A stretch of 41,537 nt of DNA from Nitrospirota bacterium (lineage in GTDB: Bacteria > Nitrospirota > Thermodesulfovibrionia > Thermodesulfovibrionales > Dissulfurispiraceae): NCBI GenBank assembly GCA_021791055.1, contig JAJYXI010000026.1, positions 1 to 41,537 of the forward strand, in the 5' to 3' direction. The notes below the pieces were generated by a model. That model saw nothing but the letters and a program-made list of their open reading frames with translations, searched no databases and was not told the origin of the DNA. Positions within the stretch are counted from its first letter, which is position 1. Every line of letters starts with the position of its first letter. Below, piece after piece: positions 10,226-41,292 of the stretch. The translations under genes were made by a program, and so were the position numbers.

Positions 10226-11254
10226 TTACTCCCTGAACCTCCCCGGTATCACGGTATTGCATTTAGGACATTTGCCTTTCTTAATCCTGTTCTTAACAAT
10301 ATCAAAAACATACCTTTCTATCAGCAACTCACCGCACATATGGCAATATGTATTTTCTCCTTTATGACCCGGGACGTTTCCGAGGTATACATACCAGAGC
10401 CCTTCCTTTTTCCCAATCGACCACGCCCTTTCAAGGAGAGATATGGGTGTTGGTGGCAGATGGCTGAGATCGAGATGGGGATAAAACCTTGTAACATGCC
10501 ACGGGGTCTCGGGGCCGAGGGTATTCTTTATCCATGATGCAATGTCCCTTAATTCTTCTTCGCTGTCATTGAATCCCGGAGTAACATTTGTAACGCACTC
10601 TACATGCATTCCGTATTCCTTTGCCTTTTTAGTTATTTCAAGGATTCCCTCAAAACCCTTTATGTGTCCGGTCTTCATGTATGTCCTTTCAGAGAAGCCC
10701 TTAATATCAACCCTGTATACATCAAGGAATGGTGCTATCATATCAAAAGCATCTTCTGTTATAAATCCGTTGGTCACATAGTTGGTATAGAGTCCTTTAG
10801 TCTTTGCGAGCTTTGCTGCATCAAGTGTGTATTCAAACCATAGTGAAGGCTCGTTGAATGTCCATGATATGCCGATACATTTTGCAGCCTTTGTCTTAAA
10901 GACCAATTCTTCCGGAGACATATACTCTGTATGCATCGGTCCTTCCTTCCAGTGCGCTATATCCCAGTTCTGGCAGCCGGGGCATCTGAAGTTACAGCCC
11001 ACGCTGCCGAGGGAGAGCCATTTTGAGCCGGGATAGAAATGAAAGACAGGCTTTTTCTCTATTGGATTTATGGATAACGAGGATACCTCTCCGTAAATCA
11101 GAGTATATAGTTTCCCGTCTTTATTAATCCTCGTATGACACCAGCCCTTTTTGCCTTCAGGAATGACACATCTTCTCTGGCATGTGAGGCAGATGACCTT
11201 TCCTTCGTCAAGCCTGTCGTATAAATACGCCTCTTTTTCCATAAGCCCCTTCAT
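10226..11254 (-). CDS. amrS: AmmeMemoRadiSam system radical SAM enzyme
   Basis: A 342-aa radical SAM protein related to pyruvate-formate-lyase activases. The 4Fe-4S/SAM motif CNFRCPGC uses C87, C91 and C94. An N-terminal Cys cluster (CLTCQRRC, then GWC) precedes it, and a C-terminal zinc-ribbon-like pair (CHMCGE ... CPKCNT) closes the protein; this layout matches the family that accompanies AMMECR1 and Memo proteins. Those partners are not in this window, and the family's substrate is not established. The gene overlaps the end of ogt by about 47 bp (35 bp if the start is ATG 11242), so the two are co-transcribed. The family's usual N-terminus is close to MEKEAYLY, so ATG 11242 is equally possible. 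Confidence 0.88.
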   Translation of the reverse strand: MKGLMEKEAYLYDRLDEGKVICLTCQRRCVIPEGKKGWCHTRINKDGKLYTLIYGEVSSLSINPIEKKPVFHFYPGSKWLSLGSVGCNFRCPGCQNWDIAHWKEGPMHTEYMSPEELVFKTKAAKCIGISWTFNEPSLWFEYTLDAAKLAKTKGLYTNYVTNGFITEDAFDMIAPFLDVYRVDIKGFSERTYMKTGHIKGFEGILEITKKAKEYGMHVECVTNVTPGFNDSEEELRDIASWIKNTLGPETPWHVTRFYPHLDLSHLPPTPISLLERAWSIGKKEGLWYVYLGNVPGHKGENTYCHMCGELLIERYVFDIVKNRIKKGKCPKCNTVIPGRFRE

Positions 11255-11744
11255 GCCTCAACAACCACCTTTTAATTCCCACCCCGCACGAAAAGCCTCC
11301 GATAGATCCATCGGAGGCAATAACCCTGTGGCAGGGTAAAATTATCGGCAACGGGTTTTTTCCAAGCGCCTGCCCAACTGCCCTCACTGCCTTTGGACAG
11401 GCAATCTTTTCAGCAATCCATTTATAAGAGCGTGTCTCACCGTATGGTATTTCTTTCAATGCAAGCCAGACCCTTTGCTCAAAGGCTGTTCCGCTTATGA
11501 ATTTTATTTTCTGATTAAACTCCTTTAAATCACCTTTAAAATAGGCATCAAGCTCATAAAACAGGCAATAGGCTATAGGCGATAGGCTATGGGACATAGG
11601 CGATAAGGTTGTCTTTTTTAATTCTATTGCCTCTTGCCTATAGCCTATTGCCTCCTGTATTGACATCTCTATCAAAAACTCACCTTCAAACGAACAATAA
11701 ATATCGCCAACAGGGCTTTTATATACAAAGAGCTTGCGTTCCAT
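11208..11744 (-). CDS. ogt: Methylated-DNA--protein-cysteine methyltransferase, with repeat-derived insert
   Basis: A suicide repair enzyme that removes O6-alkyl groups from guanine. The active site PCHRV has Cys138, and FEQRVWLALKEIPYGETRSY and AVGQALGKNPLPIILPCHRV are the standard DNA-binding and catalytic blocks; the length of 178 aa is normal. Residues about 31-62 (QEAIGYRQEAIEL ... MSHSLSPIAYCLF) do not fit the family. They are encoded by two opposed arrays of 7-bp repeats (11563-11651) whose 18-bp arms are perfect inverted repeats. The insert is in frame and lies in the loop between the N-terminal domain and the catalytic domain, so the enzyme may tolerate it. It overlaps the radical SAM gene downstream. 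Confidence 0.92.
   Translation of the reverse strand: MERKLFVYKSPVGDIYCSFEGEFLIEMSIQEAIGYRQEAIELKKTTLSPMSHSLSPIAYCLFYELDAYFKGDLKEFNQKIKFISGTAFEQRVWLALKEIPYGETRSYKWIAEKIACPKAVRAVGQALGKNPLPIILPCHRVIASDGSIGGFSCGVGIKRWLLRHEGAYGKRGVFIRQA
11563..11653. repeat. Paired heptamer arrays forming an 18-bp-armed palindrome, inside ogt
   Basis: Six 7-bp units run from 11563 to 11604 (aggcaat, aggctat, aggcgat, aggctat, gggacat, aggcgat). Four units in the opposite orientation run from 11624 to 11651 (ctattgc, ctcttgc, ctatagc, ctattgc). Positions 11563-11580 and 11636-11653 are perfect 18-bp inverted repeats. The element is read in frame by ogt. Confidence 0.85.
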
Positions 11745-17353: not shown

Positions 17354-18463
17354 ATGTGCAGACTGGCTGCAATTACTTCGAAAGATTACATCTCACCCAT
17401 GGAGACCATCCTTGCCCTCGAGACAATGAAAGAAGGACATGACGGCTCGGGCCTCGGGCTCACGCTGAAAAATCTCGGCGGAGAGTTCGAGAAGCTGAAA
17501 AAATATCCCATACTTTCGGGCATCTGTTCGAAAACAGGCAAGAAGACCCTCGATGACTTCATGAACAAACAGGGCTTCAAACTAAAACATGAGTGGAAAC
17601 CAAAGATAAAACCTGTAAAAGGAATTGTTGCCCGCGACTGCTATTTTGCAAGGGCATATGATTACCCTGCTTCTTATAAAAACAAGTCAATTCAGGAAAA
17701 GGAATCACTTTTAATGAATACCCGCCTTGCATTGAGAAGAATCGGCGAGCCTGGAGAGTCCATATTTGCGTTTTCGTTTTACCCTGATGTCATTACATTA
17801 AAAGAGGTGGGAGATCCCCTCGAGGTGGCAGAATTCTTCGGTCTCGACAGAGACGGACTAAAGGCAAAAATCGTATTAGCACAAGGCAGGCAAAACACAA
17901 ACTATGCGATATATCTCTATGCATGCCATCCGTTCTTCATTCAGGGATACTGCTCAATGACAAACGGCGAAAACACGGCATTTGTTCCAATAAGGGAATT
18001 TCTGATGAGCCGTGGGTTTTCGGGATACATCGGATACAACAGTGACAGCGAGGTATTCACACACATACTGCACTATACAGTAAGGCAACTTGGATTCCCA
18101 TTAAATTATTATAAAGATGTTATTACTCCACTCAAGCCATCGGAAATCGAACAGAGAAAAGACAGTGAGGCATTAAGGCTCATGAAACATTCATTAAGGC
18201 CGTTATGCATAGACGGACCAAACATGGTAATAGGCTTCGCCCCTGACGGCACATGCTTCATGGTTCAGGATTCAAAGAAACTGAGGCCGGGTGTTGTGGG
18301 CGGCGTAAAAGGCAAATATGCATTGATGTCAGAGGAGTGCGGCGTTGACAAGGCAGTTCCGAAAAGAGACAGGAGCAAAGACATATTCCCCATGAAATAC
18401 GACATGGTAATTGTCTCGCCCGATGCACAGGAGGTTAAGGTATGGAACCAGCTTCAGGGATAA
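17354..18463 (+). CDS. Glutamate synthase, glutamine amidotransferase (GATase type 2) subunit
   Basis: A 369-aa class II amidotransferase that supplies ammonia from glutamine. After Met removal, Cys2 is the N-terminal nucleophile (MCRLAAITS), and family landmarks include HDGSGLGL, NTRLALRR and YCSMTNGE. It corresponds to the N-terminal domain of bacterial GltB, here a separate protein. This split layout is typical of archaea and some deep-branching bacteria. It overlaps the next gene by 22 bp, so the subunits should be made in equal amounts. Confidence 0.92.
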   Translation: MCRLAAITSKDYISPMETILALETMKEGHDGSGLGLTLKNLGGEFEKLKKYPILSGICSKTGKKTLDDFMNKQGFKLKHEWKPKIKPVKGIVARDCYFARAYDYPASYKNKSIQEKESLLMNTRLALRRIGEPGESIFAFSFYPDVITLKEVGDPLEVAEFFGLDRDGLKAKIVLAQGRQNTNYAIYLYACHPFFIQGYCSMTNGENTAFVPIREFLMSRGFSGYIGYNSDSEVFTHILHYTVRQLGFPLNYYKDVITPLKPSEIEQRKDSEALRLMKHSLRPLCIDGPNMVIGFAPDGTCFMVQDSKKLRPGVVGGVKGKYALMSEECGVDKAVPKRDRSKDIFPMKYDMVIVSPDAQEVKVWNQLQG

Positions 18464-20106
18464 GATTAGACCACAATCACAAACTCTCGCTAAGGGAGTT
18501 TCCATATATCATCCGCTGGAGGGAAGACAGGTGCAAGAGGTGCGGAAAATGCACCTCAGTATGTCCTGTAAAGGCCATTGAGCCGACAGTAAAAGTCCAG
18601 AGGGTTGTGAAATCCGAAGGCCCTGTTCCAACGCCCGCAGCAGTCAGGAGCATCACCCATGTTGTTGAACAGGTTACAGACATGGAGCGTTATTGCACCG
18701 GCTGCGGCACATGCACATTGGTATGTCCAAACGAGGCGATTGAGCCTGAATTCAATCCCCAGCACAAATTCCTCCATTACAAAAACAAGGGAGGAGACGG
18801 ATACAAGAGGGGCGGAAGGAGAAACGACCCATCCATATCAACCCTCGACAGGCTGAAATTTACAAGAATATCCATGCTCACAGACCCTGCGCTGGATGCA
18901 GGAAGACACGAATTCCGTGTAAGGTCTCTAATCGGAAGGATTTTGCCTCCCGAAGAACTGCCATTAAAAATGGTAAACGGCAAATTGGTTGTTGATAAAG
19001 AGAGCAGGTTTATCCCGCCTGTCCGTGAGATATTCCCTATTATGATAGGAAGCATGTCAATCGGAGCGCTCTCTCCTCCGATGTGGGAAGGGCTTGCAAT
19101 GGGTGTGGCCTATCTCAATGAGGTAGAGGGATTGCCTGTTGTAATGGCTTCAGGCGAGGGAGGAATGCCGCCGGGGCTTTTAAGATCAAAGTATCTGAAG
19201 TATTTCATAATCCAGATCGCATCAGGTTATTTCGGATGGGATGAGATAATACATTCACTGCCACACATGGTTGAAGACCCTGCAGCTATAGAGATCAAGT
19301 ACGGTCAGGGTGCAAAGCCGGGCGACGGCGGGTTGTTGATGGCGCAGAAGGTTCTCAAGCTCATTGCAAAAATCAGAGGCGTGCCTCAGTTCGTTGACCT
19401 TGCATCGCCTCCAACACACCAGACAAAGTACTCCATAGAAGAAGCGGTTGCAAAGATGATCCAGTCCATGTCCATGGCATGGGGGTTCAGGGTGCCTGTT
19501 TATCCGAAGATCTCAGGCACTAAAACAGCACGGGCTGTATTAAACAATCTTGCGAGAAACCCATATGCAGCAGCCCTCAGCATAGACGGTGAAGACGGCG
19601 GAACAGGCGCTGCATACAATGTGTCCATGGACAAGATGGGCCATCCCATAGCTTCAAACTTGAGGGAGTGTTATCTCGACCTTGTAAGACAGGGCAAGCA
19701 GAATGAGCTTCCATTGATAGCAGCAGGAGGAATCGGAAAAAAAGGCAATCTTGCAGCAAATGCCGCAGCGCTCATAATGCTCGGCGCATCTGCAGTTGCC
19801 ATAGGCAAATACATAATGCAGGCAACAGCAGACTGTTTTGGAGACGAATACAACCGCTGCAACCTATGCAATACAGGCAAATGCCCGAGGGGCATAACAA
19901 CACAGGATCCGAAACTTTACAGAAGGCTTGACTCAGACAGGGTTGCAGAGCGTGTAGTAGAGGTCTTCAAGGCGGCAGATGTGGAATTAAGAAAGATATT
20001 CGCGCCGATGGGAAGGAGTACAGAGCTCCCCATAGGCATGTCTGACGGATTAAGCATAGATGACCAGGCAATGGCAGAGAGGTTGGGAATAAGTTATGCG
20101 TGCTAA
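18442..20106 (+). CDS. Glutamate synthase, ferredoxin-domain/FMN synthase subunit
   Basis: A 554-aa subunit that makes glutamate from 2-oxoglutarate and ammonia on FMN. The N-terminus has two 4Fe-4S motifs (C31/34/37/41 in CKRCGKCTSVCP; C85/88/91/95 in CTGCGTCTLVCP). A TIM-barrel FMN domain follows, with AIEIKYGQGAKPGDGGLL, SIDGEDGGTGAAYN, PLIAAGGIGKKG and the 3Fe-4S cluster CNLCNTGKCPRGITTQDP. It matches archaeal-type GltB central domains. The GGAGG site lies within the previous gene. Its stop is 11 bp inside the next gene. Confidence 0.95.
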   Translation: MEPASGIRLDHNHKLSLREFPYIIRWREDRCKRCGKCTSVCPVKAIEPTVKVQRVVKSEGPVPTPAAVRSITHVVEQVTDMERYCTGCGTCTLVCPNEAIEPEFNPQHKFLHYKNKGGDGYKRGGRRNDPSISTLDRLKFTRISMLTDPALDAGRHEFRVRSLIGRILPPEELPLKMVNGKLVVDKESRFIPPVREIFPIMIGSMSIGALSPPMWEGLAMGVAYLNEVEGLPVVMASGEGGMPPGLLRSKYLKYFIIQIASGYFGWDEIIHSLPHMVEDPAAIEIKYGQGAKPGDGGLLMAQKVLKLIAKIRGVPQFVDLASPPTHQTKYSIEEAVAKMIQSMSMAWGFRVPVYPKISGTKTARAVLNNLARNPYAAALSIDGEDGGTGAAYNVSMDKMGHPIASNLRECYLDLVRQGKQNELPLIAAGGIGKKGNLAANAAALIMLGASAVAIGKYIMQATADCFGDEYNRCNLCNTGKCPRGITTQDPKLYRRLDSDRVAERVVEVFKAADVELRKIFAPMGRSTELPIGMSDGLSIDDQAMAERLGISYAC

Positions 20107-22909: not shown

Positions 22910-23371
22910 ATGCAGCAAAAAATAATATCGGTCATAGGCGCAGGCGATGCAGATGAGACGACTTTGAAAATTGCTGAAGAGGCAGGAAAGCTCATAGCAA
23001 AGAGAAGTGCTATTTTAATCTGTGGAGGTCTCGGCGGAGTGATGGAAGCTGCTGCAAAGGGTGCAAAATCAGAAGGCGGAATAACCGTGGGAATACTGCC
23101 ACAGAGCCATAGAGAAGACGCCAATCCTTACATTGACATTCCCGTTGCTACTGGATTTGGAGAAGGAAGAAATGTTATCATAATCCGTTCAGCAGATGCC
23201 TTGATTGCTGTTGGCGGAGAATACGGAACGCTTTCAGAAATAGCCCTCGGATTGAAAACAGGCAAGCCGGTCATAGGCATAAACACATGGGACATAAAGG
23301 GCATCATAAAAGCGGACAATGCTGAAGACGCAATAAATAAGGTTTTTGAGATTTTAACTCTTAACTCATAA
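22910..23371 (+). CDS. TIGR00725/LOG-like Rossmann-fold protein
   Basis: A 153-aa protein of the lysine-decarboxylase-like/LOG superfamily (TIGR00725 branch). It shows ISVIGAGDAD, ILICGGLGGVMEAAAKGAKS, GFGEGRNVIIIRSADALIAV and GGEYGTLSEIALGLKTGKPV; the GGxGT signature is present as GGEYGT. LOG members release free bases from nucleoside monophosphates, but this branch has no proven reaction. ATG 22910, after the site GAAGGA, is preferred over an upstream start inside the previous gene. The last codons (LTLNS) and the stop at 23369-23371 lie in a 7-bp repeat array (23354-23388), so the original C-terminus may have been replaced. Confidence 0.85.
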   Translation: MQQKIISVIGAGDADETTLKIAEEAGKLIAKRSAILICGGLGGVMEAAAKGAKSEGGITVGILPQSHREDANPYIDIPVATGFGEGRNVIIIRSADALIAVGGEYGTLSEIALGLKTGKPVIGINTWDIKGIIKADNAEDAINKVFEILTLNS

Positions 23372-23388
23372 CTCTGAACTCTTAACTA
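23354..23388. repeat. Five-unit heptamer array across a gene end
   Basis: Five 7-bp units (ttaactc, ttaactc, ataactc, tgaactc, ttaacta) occupy exactly 35 bp. The array covers the last codons and stop of the TIGR00725-like gene and ends eight bases before tRNA-Arg. Confidence 0.85.
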
Positions 23389-34990: not shown

Positions 34991-36172
34991 TTAATTGTAG
35001 GATTTGTGTCTTGTAAATTCATTTATAATCTCTGCTATATGCTTTACCGGTCTGTCCTTAATCTTGCTCCTGAGCTGGAGGATACAGTTCGGGCATGATG
35101 TGACAATCATATCTGCTTTTTTATAATCCTCTATTCTTTTCTCAAGAATGCCTTCTGAAAGCTCCTGATATAATAACCTAAATGTGCCTCCAAATCCACA
35201 GCATCCCCTCTCCGAATCGATCAGATTAAATCCCATTGATTTCAATATCTGCCTTGGCTCAGCACTGACATTCAGACTATAAATGGAATGGCATGGGTCG
35301 TGATAGATTATTTTTAAGGCTGAAGGCTGAGGGCTAAAGGCTAAAGGCTGAAATTTGCTGAAAAATTGCGATATTTCCATAGCATTGGCTATTCCGTCGC
35401 CCACAAGATTTCTATACTCATTTTTTATAAAATGCACACAGGTTGGACAGGTGCCAATTACAGCCTCCACATTCAGCCTCTTAAATACAGTCATGTTCTT
35501 CTCTGCCATTTCAACAGCATCGTCTTTCAGCCCGAGCCCCATCAGAGGTGCGCCGCAGCAGACCTCTCCCTTGGGAAGAATGACATCATAATTCATTGCA
35601 TTAAGACTGTCTATCAACGACCTTCCTATACCGGGATAGATAAAGTTAATACTGCAGCCTGTAAATACAGCAATCCTTCCCTTCGACTTCGCTGCCTTGA
35701 AGATAGACATGTCGTCCCTAAGCGCAGATGAGGGGAAACTTATGTCCATTTCTTTTATTGCCTTAAATGGACGGATACTGAAAACAGGAAGCATCTCATT
35801 TATACTCTCAAGGAATTTTAACGCCTTAAAGGTCTTTTGTGCCTTTTTAAGCCCTAATCTTACGCTGAAATTTAGAAGCTTCCTCTTTTTATTGAATTCT
35901 TTAAGGTTCTTTCTGCCTTCGTATATTGCATCAGTTACATTAATCCCGAGCGGGCACAGTCTGTTGCATGCACCGCATAGTATGCAGCTGAATATCCTAT
36001 CATCCAATTTTATGGATGGCTCGAGTTCGCCTTCATAAAATTTCTCTAAGAGGATAACCCTCCCCCTTGCGCTCATACCTTCAGTTACATCTTCGATATA
36101 AGTAGGACATACAGCCTTGCAGCTTCCACACCGGACACAAGGGAGCGATGAGTTATGAATTGAGTTTTCCAC
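34991..36172 (-). CDS. glcF: Glycolate/lactate oxidase iron-sulfur subunit-like (GlcF-type, CCG domains)
   Basis: A 393-aa Fe-S protein. Two N-terminal 4Fe-4S motifs are CVRCGSCKAVCPTY and CILCGACNRLCPLG. Two CCG domains follow: EVCCGAPLMG and YHDPCHSIYS ... RGCCGFGGTF, in the order found in GlcF and heterodisulfide-reductase-like proteins. It probably passes electrons from a FAD dehydrogenase, which is not in the window. A GTG start at 36172, with AAGGA seven bases upstream, is preferred to TTG 36187; either way it overlaps the larE 3' end. Residues around FFSKFQPLAFSPQPSALKII come from a 5-unit heptamer array (35316-35350), just before the second CCG motif. Confidence 0.88.
   Translation of the reverse strand: MENSIHNSSLPCVRCGSCKAVCPTYIEDVTEGMSARGRVILLEKFYEGELEPSIKLDDRIFSCILCGACNRLCPLGINVTDAIYEGRKNLKEFNKKRKLLNFSVRLGLKKAQKTFKALKFLESINEMLPVFSIRPFKAIKEMDISFPSSALRDDMSIFKAAKSKGRIAVFTGCSINFIYPGIGRSLIDSLNAMNYDVILPKGEVCCGAPLMGLGLKDDAVEMAEKNMTVFKRLNVEAVIGTCPTCVHFIKNEYRNLVGDGIANAMEISQFFSKFQPLAFSPQPSALKIIYHDPCHSIYSLNVSAEPRQILKSMGFNLIDSERGCCGFGGTFRLLYQELSEGILEKRIEDYKKADMIVTSCPNCILQLRSKIKDRPVKHIAEIINEFTRHKSYN
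35316..35350. repeat. Five-unit heptamer array inside glcF-like gene
   Basis: Five 7-bp units (aaggctg, aaggctg, agggcta, aaggcta, aaggctg) fill exactly 35 bp. In the minus-strand gene they encode LAFSPQPSAL, in frame, between the first and second CCG domains. Confidence 0.85.
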
Positions 36173-36941: not shown

Positions 36942-38446
36942 AGGACGGTAATTTCATAATTTTCCTGATGGAGGTTTATGTCCTCCTTTACTATTACTTT
37001 TATGCCGTAGATATTCTCGACATCTTCAATGCCATTCCTCTCTTCGTCAGAAAGGAGGTCTGCCACCTCAGTATTTGCCTTTATCATGACCGTTGTATTG
37101 CGTGGCAGGTTCATCTTTTTAAGCTTCCTGAATATCTCATAAGCCACCGTCCTTGCTGATTTCACAAACCCCTTGCCTTCGCAGTAAGGACATTGCTCGC
37201 AAAGCACGCGGCCAAGGCTTTCCCTCACACGCTTTCTTGTCATCTGTATGATGCCGAGCTCGGAGAGATTATAAATGGTATTCTTTGCCCTGTCTTTTTT
37301 CATGGCATCGACAAAGGCGCTGAATACCTTCTCCCTGTTTTCCGGTTTTTCCATATCAATAAAGTCTATTATGATAATTCCGCCGAGGTTTCTTAGCCTT
37401 ATCTGGTAGGCAATCTCTTTAACTGCTTCGAGATTCGTCTTTAAGATTGTATCTTCAAGGCTCTCCTTCCCTACAAACTTTCCTGTATTCACATCGATAA
37501 CAGTCATCGCCTCTGTCTGGTCAATAACGATATATCCGCCTGATTTAAGCCATACCCTCCTACCGAGCGCCCTCGATATATCGAGCTCTATGCCGAATGC
37601 ATCGAATATAGGCTCTCTGCCTTCGTATAATTCTATCCTGTCAAGGAGTCTCGGAAAATATGACCTGGCAAATTCCCTTACCCTCTCATACTCTTCAGTA
37701 GAGTCTATTACAAGCCTCTCCACATCGTGGCTCATAAAATCCCTCACGCTCCTGAATACCAGATCGAGGTCGCTGTAAATAAGGCACGAAGCAGATACCT
37801 TTTCTTTCTTTTTCTGGATATCCTCCCATAGGAGCATCAGAAATTCGAGGTCTTTCTTTATTTCATCGGTGGTGGCATCTTCGCTTGCAGTCCTCACTAT
37901 CAGACCAAACCCTTTAGGCTTTATTTCAGTAGCAATTGCCTTGAGCCTTGCACGGCTCTCCTCATTCTCGATCCTTCTGGAGATCCCTACATGCTCCACA
38001 TTCGGCATAAGCACCACATATCTGCCGGGGAGTGTAATGTACGAAGTAACACGCGCTCCCTTTGTCCCAATAGGGTCTTTCGAGACCTGGACAAAGAGCT
38101 CCTGACCTTCCTGTATTACTTCCTCTATCGATAACGCCTCTTCCATATGCCCTGCCTCCGGATACAGTTCGAGCTTTTCTGTTTCGGTATCCAAAAAGGC
38201 TGTATAATACTCCTCCATCTCTGTCATTATGTCAGCCACATACAAGAAGGCGGCCTTTTCAAGACCGATATCGACAAAGGCAGACTGCATTCCAGGAAGT
38301 ATCTTTATAATCTTTCCTTTGTATATATTACCTACGAGGCTTGCGCCCCTCTTCCTCTCTATATACAACTCAACAACCTGCCCTCCCTCAAGGAGCGCAA
38401 CCCTGCTTTCCTCTCTCGCTGCATTAATTACAAGTTCGCTTGTCAT
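36938..38446 (-). CDS. rng: Ribonuclease G/E-family endoribonuclease
   Basis: A 502-aa RNase E/G core enzyme that cuts rRNA precursors and mRNAs. It has an N-terminal S1 domain (VGNIYKGKIIKILPGMQSAF, VDIGLEKAAFLYVADI), the metal-binding aspartates in TVIDVNTGKF and IIIIDFIDMEKPENR, and the zinc link CEQCPYCEGKGFV. No C-terminal RNase E degradosome tail is present, so it is RNase G-like. ATG 38446 is chosen with GGTGGAG six bases upstream; it overlaps the TGA of the radical-SAM fusion gene. The upstream partner gene is commonly found next to rng in other genomes. Confidence 0.96.
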   Translation of the reverse strand: MTSELVINAAREESRVALLEGGQVVELYIERKRGASLVGNIYKGKIIKILPGMQSAFVDIGLEKAAFLYVADIMTEMEEYYTAFLDTETEKLELYPEAGHMEEALSIEEVIQEGQELFVQVSKDPIGTKGARVTSYITLPGRYVVLMPNVEHVGISRRIENEESRARLKAIATEIKPKGFGLIVRTASEDATTDEIKKDLEFLMLLWEDIQKKKEKVSASCLIYSDLDLVFRSVRDFMSHDVERLVIDSTEEYERVREFARSYFPRLLDRIELYEGREPIFDAFGIELDISRALGRRVWLKSGGYIVIDQTEAMTVIDVNTGKFVGKESLEDTILKTNLEAVKEIAYQIRLRNLGGIIIIDFIDMEKPENREKVFSAFVDAMKKDRAKNTIYNLSELGIIQMTRKRVRESLGRVLCEQCPYCEGKGFVKSARTVAYEIFRKLKKMNLPRNTTVMIKANTEVADLLSDEERNGIEDVENIYGIKVIVKEDINLHQENYEITVL

Positions 38447-40980
38447 AACGGCTCCACCCATTCATTATCCCCTGCCCCTTTTTTTCCATAAAGGGCTGTT
38501 CTTGTGATTTCTAATTTATTCATATTCATTCCGAATATCGCCTCGGCAATCTCTCCGATTCTAACCTTAATATTATCTGTATCTCTAAGAATTAATCTGG
38601 CTGATGCTTCATTATCAGCTTCAGAAAAAATCACATCCTCTATGCATGGCAATATATCAACATCTCTACCGTCACGCTGAACGACAATTGGGGCACGGGG
38701 CGATAGGCTATAGGCGATAGGCAAACCACCTACATCTCCAGTCTCAAACCTATTGCCTATTGCCTTTTGCCAATTGCCTCTTATTAAATACTCGTATCTT
38801 TTAATAAAGCTGTTTAAGGATGGGGTATCAGCCGTAATGAGCGCTATCCTATTTATCTTTATCCCTTGTGGCATCGTATCATTTAATTCCCTCATATAAA
38901 ATTCTATATCAAAGGGGGTAAAAACCTCCATATCAAAATATTCTCTCTCACCTGCCACGCCAACATTCAGAGGAGGACCAAATGAGACCTTTGGAGATGG
39001 ATGGAATCCCTTTGAGAAATCAAACGGCACTGATGCCCTCCTTAATCCTCTCAATACCGCCGTTACGAGTTCAAGGTGAGAAAGGTAACGCAGCATGCCT
39101 GTCTTTGAGAACTGGACGCGGACTCTTATTTTGTGAATAGGTGAATGGGTGAATGGGTGAATCGGCGCTGTTATTTCTTTATTCTCAAGTTTCTCCGTTT
39201 CTCCGATTCCCCGTTTCTCCATTTCTTTACACTTCAGTCCGCACGCTGTGCAGACCCTTCTACAGTCTTGCGTTCTCTCTTCTGTCAATGCCCTTTCATA
39301 TTCTTTATACAGAAAACCCTTCTTTATTCCGACATCTATGTTGTCCCACGGCAATCTTTCATCCTTCCCGTAGGTTCTCTCTGCATATGATGAGCCGTCT
39401 ATACCTGTCTTATCCATTGCATCAAGCCATTTATTAAAATCAAACATCTCCGACCATCCATCCAGTCTGCATCCTGATTCCCATGCCTTTTCTATCAGCA
39501 CCGATAGCCTTTCATCTCCCCTCGCAAATACAGCCTCAAGGAAGCTCATATGCTCATCATGTCCCTTGTACTTAAATTTCTTACTGCTCAACATTTCCCT
39601 CAAATATCTCTGCTTCCGCCTTATCTCGTCAAGGCTTATCTGCCCGCGCCACTGAAACGGTGTGTGTGGTTTAGGAACAAAGGGAGAGATAGTTATGCTT
39701 ATGTTCGCAAACCTTCCCATATTCTTCTTTGCTATATGCAGGGCATTCATTGCCATTCCCTTTATTGCCTCAATGTCTTCATCCGTCTCTGTTGGAAGTC
39801 CAATCATAAAATAGAGCTTGAGGGCATGCCAGCCCTCTCCGAAAAGGGCATTCAGCGCCCTCTCATAGTCATTATCGCTGAAATCTTTATTTATGACACT
39901 TCTTAGTCTTTCTGTTGCGGCCTCAGGGGCCATTGTAAAACCTGTCTTTCTTACAGCCCTAATCTCCTTTAATACATCTTGATTAACAACTCCTACTCTT
40001 AGAGACGGCAATGAAAGGGCTATCTTCGATCTGCCGAACCTTTTATTGCATCCTTTTATTACAGAAAGAAGGTTAGTGTAATCGCCCGCGCTCAGGGATG
40101 TGAATGATACCTCATCATAACCTGTGTTCTTCAGGGACTCTTCAGCAATCCTCAAAACATTCTCTGGACTTCTCTCCCTCAACGGCCTGTAAATCATCCC
40201 TGCCTGACAGAACCTGCAGCCCATCGTGCATCCCCGCGATACCTCTATGTTTATCCTGTCATGCACGATAGATGCATAAGGAACGACAGGCTTCACAGGA
40301 TATGGTGCGCTATCAAGGTTCCGGACAAATCTCCTCTTTATCGCAGATTCTGATTTATGAATAGAAGGAACATAGAAACCCTCTATCTTAGAAATTTCTT
40401 TGAGAATCGATTCCTTTTTCCCATCGTCACTCAATTTCGACTGCCTTACCACATCAATTAATTCAAGCACTGCATCTTCGCCATCGCCGACCAAGAAGGC
40501 ATCGATAAAAGCAGCCATTGGCGCAGGATTAACTGTGCATGGCCCTCCTGCTATAACAACCGGCAATTTTTCTTTTGAATTAATTCTCTCCTCTGAGCGG
40601 AGAGGAATGGATCCAAGATGAAGCATATTCAAGACAGTCGTGTATGAGAGTTCATACTGGAGGCTGAAACCGATGACATCAAATTCATTAAGGGAAGTTT
40701 TTGATTCGAGGGATGAAAGGAGGATATTGTTTCCCTTCAAGTATTCTTCAAGGTCCGTCCATGGAGAAAAAAACCTTTCGGCAGAGGCATAAGGCAGTTT
40801 ATTTATTATTTCATAGAGGATCTTTAATCCGAGATGGGACATTCCCACTTCATAAACATCGGGAAAGCACAATGCAATATTCACATTGCCGGGAAGAATT
40901 TTCTTAGAAAATTTTTCCCGGAATGAATTTAGCTCACTGCCTATATAACGGCTGGGCCTCTGGAAGGAAGAAAGCTTCAC
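38443..40980 (-). CDS. TIGR03960 B12-binding-type radical SAM protein fused to TIGR03936/DUF2344 domain
   Basis: An 845-aa protein. Residues 1-240 are a cobalamin-binding-like domain (NIALCFPDVYEVGMSHLGLK, VIAGGPCTVNPAPMAAFIDA). The radical SAM cluster is C251, C255 and C258 (CTMGCRFCQAG). A DUF2344 domain begins at about 625 (IRVRVQFSKTGMLRYLSHLE, FSKGFHPSPKVSFGPPLN). The family usually precedes rng, as here. Its reaction is not established. Three repeat arrays lie inside it. Two octamer arrays (39133-39164 and 39190-39221) encode the linker between the domains (KLENKEITAPIHPFTHSPIH), and a paired heptamer element (38701-38779) sits in the DUF2344 domain (KAIGN ... LPIAYSL). Confidence 0.93.
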   Translation of the reverse strand: MKLSSFQRPSRYIGSELNSFREKFSKKILPGNVNIALCFPDVYEVGMSHLGLKILYEIINKLPYASAERFFSPWTDLEEYLKGNNILLSSLESKTSLNEFDVIGFSLQYELSYTTVLNMLHLGSIPLRSEERINSKEKLPVVIAGGPCTVNPAPMAAFIDAFLVGDGEDAVLELIDVVRQSKLSDDGKKESILKEISKIEGFYVPSIHKSESAIKRRFVRNLDSAPYPVKPVVPYASIVHDRINIEVSRGCTMGCRFCQAGMIYRPLRERSPENVLRIAEESLKNTGYDEVSFTSLSAGDYTNLLSVIKGCNKRFGRSKIALSLPSLRVGVVNQDVLKEIRAVRKTGFTMAPEAATERLRSVINKDFSDNDYERALNALFGEGWHALKLYFMIGLPTETDEDIEAIKGMAMNALHIAKKNMGRFANISITISPFVPKPHTPFQWRGQISLDEIRRKQRYLREMLSSKKFKYKGHDEHMSFLEAVFARGDERLSVLIEKAWESGCRLDGWSEMFDFNKWLDAMDKTGIDGSSYAERTYGKDERLPWDNIDVGIKKGFLYKEYERALTEERTQDCRRVCTACGLKCKEMEKRGIGETEKLENKEITAPIHPFTHSPIHKIRVRVQFSKTGMLRYLSHLELVTAVLRGLRRASVPFDFSKGFHPSPKVSFGPPLNVGVAGEREYFDMEVFTPFDIEFYMRELNDTMPQGIKINRIALITADTPSLNSFIKRYEYLIRGNWQKAIGNRFETGDVGGLPIAYSLSPRAPIVVQRDGRDVDILPCIEDVIFSEADNEASARLILRDTDNIKVRIGEIAEAIFGMNMNKLEITRTALYGKKGAGDNEWVEPL
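38701..38779. repeat. Paired heptamer arrays inside the TIGR03936 domain
   Basis: Three units (cgatagg, ctatagg, cgatagg; 38701-38721) face five units in the opposite orientation (caaacct, attgcct, attgcct, tttgcca, attgcct; 38745-38779). The same unit family makes up the arrays inside ogt (11563-11651). Confidence 0.85.
39133..39221. repeat. Two four-unit octamer arrays in the inter-domain linker
   Basis: Four 8-bp units (gtgaatag, gtgaatgg, gtgaatgg, gtgaatcg; 39133-39164) and four further units of another sequence (tttctccg, tttctccg, attccccg, tttctcca; 39190-39221), each array exactly 32 bp, lie 25 bp apart. Both are read in frame by the radical-SAM fusion gene. Confidence 0.85.
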
Positions 40981-41108: not shown

Positions 41109-41249
41109 TTATTTTTTAGCGGTAGTTTTCTTTGCAGTCGTCTTTTTTGCTGTAGCCTTTTTTGCTGTTGTCTTTTTCGCTACAGTCTTCTTTGGTGCCG
41201 CCTTCTTTGGTGCTGCCTTCTTGGTTATTGCTTTCTTTGCTGTTGCCAT
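41109..41249 (-). CDS. 46-aa Lys/Ala/Thr-rich histone H1-like protein
   Basis: ATG at 41249, TAA at 41109-41111. The protein begins MATAKKAITKKAAPKKAAPK and continues with near-perfect five-residue repeats of the form AKKTT (KKTVA, KKTTA, KKATA, KKTTA, KKTTA). It has about 40 percent Lys, no acidic residues and no hydrophobic core, like the C-terminal tails of histone H1 and bacterial H1-like proteins (HctB, AlgP tails). It should bind DNA or RNA without specificity and may help compact the nucleoid. AAGGAGGA lies seven bases before the ATG, a good promoter is at 41293-41321 and a strong terminator follows, so it is a self-contained, probably highly expressed gene. Confidence 0.8.
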   Translation of the reverse strand: MATAKKAITKKAAPKKAAPKKTVAKKTTAKKATAKKTTAKKTTAKK

Positions 41250-41292
41250 CTTCAATCCTCCTTAATTTTTATTTGGAATAATTGTTATGTAA

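Follow-up and report, generated by a model that had tools for sequence, protein, structure and literature searches.

Dispersed arrays of seven- and eight-nucleotide words, often in convergent pairs, in a Nitrospirota genome and its relatives

Why should two unrelated genes on a single contig each carry a pair of opposed short arrays built from the same degenerate seven-nucleotide word? The question arises within a stretch of 41,537 nucleotides (termed here the window), which is contig C27 of a 2.55-Mb genome of the Thermodesulfovibrionales (Nitrospirota) assembled in 87 contigs (termed here G000). It is addressed here by comparing this genome with three others of the same genus (G001, G002 and G003), with one from another genus of the family (G015) and with other members of the phylum.

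Two genes with opposed arrays

The features under study are as follows.

38443–40980, minus strand: host gene, radical SAM (PF19864, PF04055) plus DUF2344 (PF10105), 845 residues
38697–38725, plus strand: left heptamer array, GGCGATA GGCTATA GGCGATA GGC; G-rich strand is plus and points right (TRF and direct reading)
38726–38747: spacer between the two arms, about 22–26 bp
38748–38779, minus strand: right heptamer array, minus-strand units GGCAATT GGCAAAA GGCAATA GGCAATA; points left
39133–39162, plus strand: left octamer array, GTGAATAG GTGAATGG GTGAATGG GTGAAT, in the linker from the radical-SAM part to DUF2344
39189–39226, minus strand: right octamer array, GGAGAAAC units on the minus strand; opposed to 39133–39162
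11208–11744, minus strand: ogt-like gene (PF01035), 178 residues, host of the second heptamer pair
11563–11605, plus strand: left heptamer array in ogt, GGCAATA GGCTATA GGCGATA GGCTATG and further units
11624–11654, minus strand: right heptamer array in ogt, opposed to the left

The heptamer pairs of the two genes both consist of opposed arrays of one family, GGCNATA. A preliminary description of this DNA had noted opposed arrays of the same family in both genes, and TRF, direct reading and a pattern count bear it out; the interval that it gave for the DUF2344 copy, 38701–38779, takes in the array pair but misses a few outer bases of the left array. The plus-strand text at 38749–38779 reads CCTATTG-CCTATTG-CCTTTTG-CCAATTG-CCT (TRF, direct reading), and the spacer resembles, by eye, that of the G015 orthologue. 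The same gene harbors a second opposed pair, whose units are 8 nt long (GTGAATGG / GGAGAAAC). At the protein level, the stretch encoded by the heptamer pair comprises residues ~734–762 of 845 and overlaps a poorly modelled loop: within the DUF2344 domain model (mean pLDDT 87.8), the sole segment below 50 is domain residues 125–138 (that is, ~745–758 of the full protein), which lies within the array-coded stretch. The structure model of ogt is too poor for use (mean pLDDT 50.8).

Elsewhere in the window there are single heptamer arrays of other word families, TTAACTC (4.9 copies, 23354–23387) and AAGGCTG (5.3 copies, 35316–35352), and, near the window's end, a 15-nt period array (TTCTTTGCTGTTGCC, 5–8 copies, 41113–41252), which is unlike the 7- and 8-nt class.

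A dispersed population and its inward pairing

Searching the source genome for TAGGCNATAGGCNATAGGC with at most two mismatches yields 33 forward and 40 reverse matches (73 genome-wide), versus 1 for the reversed-pattern control. GGCNATA matches at 30 places (28 outside the window and 2 inside it, counted by hand), so the two pairs are not the only occurrences in the genome, a possibility that the preliminary description had raised against itself. The same pattern matches 128 times in G001, 70 times in G002, 62 times in G003 and 183 times in G015, and close to zero times in most other relatives; of 296 genomes of the phylum, 24 (G249 and G259 among them) contain a stricter three-unit pattern, whose distribution is patchy and in which the same position is degenerate.

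GGCNATA is one family among several. Arrays of period 7, 8, 14 or 16 occur about 15–18 times per 100 kb within sampled stretches of G000, G001 and G002, where the word families include GGCNATA, GGTGAATG, CAGAAGT, GGCTGAA, ATTTGAG, GAGTTTA and others. In these three genomes, an unbiased scan over lags finds 5.8–7.5 arrays per 100 kb at lag 7 and 1.2–2.0 at lag 8, with the other lags (5, 6 and 9–13) almost empty; trinucleotide shuffles give zero at lags 7 and 8, and the same scan finds no 7- or 8-nt arrays in the sampled portions of two distant genomes (G028 and G037). These counts come from sampled stretches, which for most other relatives amount to only 20–40 kb and are weak evidence either way. 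Arrays are ~32 bp long (10–90% range about 26–36 in G000 and G001), and 138 of 189 lie within called ORFs (a simple ORF caller, with 90% ORF cover).

When the 44 GGCNATA-family arrays of G000 are written as AGGCNAT, the bases at positions 1–4 and 6 are strongly fixed, those at 5 (A 0.55, T 0.22, G 0.21) and 7 (T 0.54, A 0.26, G 0.16) variable, a contrast that is partly built in, since the search consensus left those positions free or lenient. Some of the variation within genes, we infer, must come from avoiding an in-frame TAG. The word contains only GG, with no runs of three or more G from which a G-quadruplex could form.

It is hard to obtain the same degenerate word at many places through independent local slippage; and because this word and the paired structure recur in many unrelated genes, isolated slippage of each gene's own sequence is insufficient. 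On this point the preliminary description, which had argued against local slippage, holds. The window's arrays thus very probably belong to a genome-wide population of short arrays, some 27–36 bp in length, of 7- or 8-nt words, often arranged as two convergent arms.

The arrangement of these arms follows a rule. Among TRF pairs within 80 bp of each other in G000, 15 are inward, none outward, 1 on the same strand and 4 undecided, and the two arms of every one of the 15 inward pairs agree in period (8 pairs are 8/8 and 7 pairs 7/7, where 14 and 16 count as doubles). The corresponding counts in G002 (6 inward, 1 outward, 8 on the same strand, 2 undecided) are less clean because several arrays of different words stand side by side there. 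When the flanks of 189 arrays, drawn from four genomes, are scanned with profiles (score 20), an opposite-strand partner of the same family is detected inward in 47 cases and outward in 4, with same-strand partners in 1 and 1; the control, in which flanks are taken from other arrays with the same period, gives 11.2 inward and 0.5 outward. Halving these counts to 24 and 2, since arms are counted twice, gives a p of about 1e-5 for the inward bias. In inward pairs the G-rich strand of each arm runs 5' to 3' toward a short spacer, the gap being mostly 0–50 bp. For about 70% of the 189 arrays the profile scan detects no same-family partner.

Such a rule might also arise if slippage during synthesis of the G-rich strand were followed by hairpin fold-back copying (that is, intrastrand template switching) that makes the second arm from the first and later corrects it. 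This is a serious rival, if on balance a doubtful one. The arms share period and family far more often than they do with other arrays' partners; the pairs are predicted to fold as RNA (z of -5.8 for the ogt pair and -3.4 for the DUF2344 pair); and 7-nt slippage set by the polymerase's contact length is proposed in the literature, as reported in PMC4679880 and PMC4692102. The word variants, however, are not in mirrored order between arms (0.748 observed versus 0.755 with units shuffled), as expected if the arms were made separately, and unit likeness between arms (0.71) does not exceed the likeness of adjacent units in the same arm (0.84 and 0.73). Nor does fold-back copying alone account for tens of loci sharing one degenerate word.

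Word replacement at orthologous sites

Orthologues differ in the DUF2344 loop: G000 and G015 have GGCNATA arrays there, those of G001 and G002 are short or eroded, and G003 has GGGTAAT; the array is old, inasmuch as GGCNATA arrays, intact or eroded, occupy this same loop in G015, G002 and G001. The linker preceding DUF2344 bears other opposed words in further relatives, for example CGAGTAA in G006 and a GTGATG type in G013. G001 and G003 are 93.5% identical across 4.4 kb around this gene. Kept between these two genomes are AAATTCA, ACAGTTC, TAGTTCA and an AATAGGC pair (the ACAGTTC array is conserved by descent in three genomes); others have been replaced. At one site encoding a signal peptide, the word is different in each of G000, G001 and G003, with both arms changed, within flanks that are about 95% identical between G001 and G003.

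Another change is seen in G003 near position 1501 of L232 (contig C20, about 31639), where an 8-nt array has expanded to many units, GTGAATGG followed by GTGAAGGG; its G001 counterpart (L221:8667) has ~four units of GTGATGGA, the word having drifted in register.

In ogt, the GGCNATA pair is found in G000, G001 and G006, is eroded in G012 and is represented by another word in G002, and G003 and G015 have in common an ordinary loop without an array, even though the C-terminal part of ogt in G003 is 92.9% identical to that in G001. By hand count from the DNA, the loop measures ~70 bp with arrays (G001) and ~73 bp without (G003); the arrays thus replace sequence at a roughly constant length. A D-Ala ligase-like gene is array-free in G000 and G001 and has an array in G003, where the adjoining sequence is unusually divergent, so that short recombination tracts may have been at work there. 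Such extra divergence extends over 50–60 bp beside some replaced sites, namely those in the ligase-like gene (G003) and in ogt (G001).

Short-tract homologous recombination between related species might then have swapped loop alleles while the arrays themselves remained slow and old. Besides the divergence next to these two replaced sites, this is consistent with the array-free ogt loop of G003, which matches G015 rather than its sister G001. The flanks of the signal-peptide site, however, stay near the genome-average identity right up to the array, the DUF2344 loop behaves largely likewise, and the arrays' origin, period and inward rule are left unexplained, so that as a general account recombination seems unlikely.

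The preliminary description had itself suggested a mobile or templated unit, and a MITE- or REP-like element inserting whole arm-spacer-arm blocks could place the same family at tens of sites. In G002, moreover, a ~120-bp composite with arrays at its edges has at least three near-identical copies in the sampled sequence, from which it follows that block copying occurs at least sometimes. The longest common word in the outer flanks, however, averages 3.48 versus 3.33 when permuted (maximum 5), so that the target duplications at array edges proposed as a check do not rise above permutation; sequence is replaced at near-constant length rather than added; and the site stays while the words of its arms differ between orthologues. 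Insertion of whole blocks is accordingly an improbable general explanation, and both a classical mobile element and local slippage alone fit poorly. As for internal sequence, no common core between the G000 pairs is apparent by eye, the one G002 composite does have such a core, and a statistic of spacer sharing, being inflated by duplicated pairs, is given no weight.

The copies of the G002 composite (L184:9160-9284, L184:10660-10784 and L186:9608-9727) are 97% identical and combine edge arrays of GGCTGAA type and CCCCTTCA type with a common core around CGCCGAAGGCGTTAT. A separate MITE-like dispersed element of ~200 bp (L221:14375-14572 in G001, L225:9841-10065 and 18307-18503, G000 C70:6445-6640, and others) has several dozen matches in G003; G001 has it at a place where the orthologous sequence of G000 (C38, about 38770) lacks it.

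Selection for a functional element, such as an RNA hairpin or a protein-binding array, would agree with the stability of the predicted folds and with the presence of both fixed and variable word positions. It is nevertheless quite improbable, given that arrays are lost or changed in the same gene of close relatives, that most sampled arrays lie in ORFs and that the variable positions do not correspond between arms. The arrays probably have no function and are tolerated in loops.

Proposed origin and comparison with known systems

The reading preferred here, to which a probability of about 0.35 is given, combines this class of arrays with a repair-type patching mechanism in which repeats of a single word are added at both ends of a gap. 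Sequence would first be lost at a break or small gap; one G-rich 7- or 8-nt word would then be added repeatedly to the two flanking 3' ends; and the extended ends would be joined. Later changes would come about through unit slippage, homogenisation and point mutation, and sometimes a further event at the site would put a new array in place of the old. Within genes, an event would survive only if it preserved the reading frame and fell in a loop (as in DUF2344), a linker or a signal peptide. Patching is favored because it fits the inward G-rich rule, the matched period and word, the unmirrored order, the constant-length replacement and the lack of target duplication; it places putative breaks, an adding enzyme and their timing behind an architecture, counts and replacements that are themselves observed. 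Counting against it are the absence of Ku from three array-rich genomes, the extra divergence beside some replaced sites, for which short-tract recombination between species could be the vehicle, the conservation of several arrays by descent and the ~70% of arrays lacking a detected same-family partner.

One conceivable source of the words is a telomerase-like reverse transcriptase that adds them from an RNA template, just as DRT10, an enzyme of this type, adds templated 9-nt repeats of fixed length (PMC12632851). However, neither G001 (100% complete) nor G015 (99%), the relatives with the most GGCNATA matches, has an RVT_1 (PF00078) match, on which ground such an enzyme is rejected as the cause, and the many word families per genome likewise make this explanation highly implausible. 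Ku was not found in G002 (one contig), G003 or G015, all of them array-rich, and Ku-dependent end joining is thereby ruled out as a requirement.

More specifically, patching might reflect a new DNA-end activity, patchily distributed in bacteria, that extends the two 3' ends of a break with several copies of a G-rich 7- or 8-nt word ahead of joining; this is unlikely, but if true, convergent heptamer pairs would be repair scars and each lineage's words would record its activity.

Heptamer repeats have been reported in bacteria for decades, and slippage is the usual explanation. Strict inward pairing, matched period and word, unmirrored order and the replacement of arrays by a new word in close relatives are constraints that simple slippage fails to satisfy, and they make the origin testable with strain-level genomes. 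They also carry a warning: loops read from array-bearing genes are translations of repeats rather than conserved protein.

The STRR of heterocystous cyanobacteria are degenerate heptamers that form short tandem arrays of several word families, also within genes; we know of no pairing rule or word turnover for them. Like STRR and long simple sequence repeats, the arrays described here have 7-nt tandem units above chance and are dispersed with a common word. Of long simple sequence repeats of 5–11 nt, heptanucleotides are the most abundant (Mrazek et al. 2007, as summarised in PMC4679880); that work is a count survey proposing slippage, and the summary speaks of no paired architecture. TAACTGA heptamers of Beggiatoaceae, Cyanobacteria and Bacteroidetes (MacGregor 2015, PMC4679880) are likewise dispersed direct repeats, patchy in taxonomic spread and sometimes within ORFs, but a single word is involved, which in the main genome lies mostly upstream of start codons, and the portion of that paper relied on here describes direct repeats with one 'indirect' case and no inward pairing.

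The closest likeness is to the GGGAATC heptamers of Xanthomonas (PMC4692102, PLoS One 2015), which are also dispersed, G-rich and in close convergent pairs with one array per strand (70 and 75 such pairs per genome), with a preferred unit number of four, strain-level variation in length and sequence, and no known role. There, a single G4-forming word is 89–93% intergenic (PMC4692102), whereas here convergent opposite-strand pairs occur without G-quadruplex runs or a mainly intergenic location: there are many words, of 7 and 8 nt, with few GGG runs, most sampled arrays lie in ORFs, and words are replaced wholesale at orthologous sites. In Xanthomonas, arrays between genes are oriented away from the closest ORF, a rule that fails here (8 of 16). 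Thus the kind of repeat is already known; what is new is the many families, the 8-nt words, the frequent location within genes and the replacement of one word by another.
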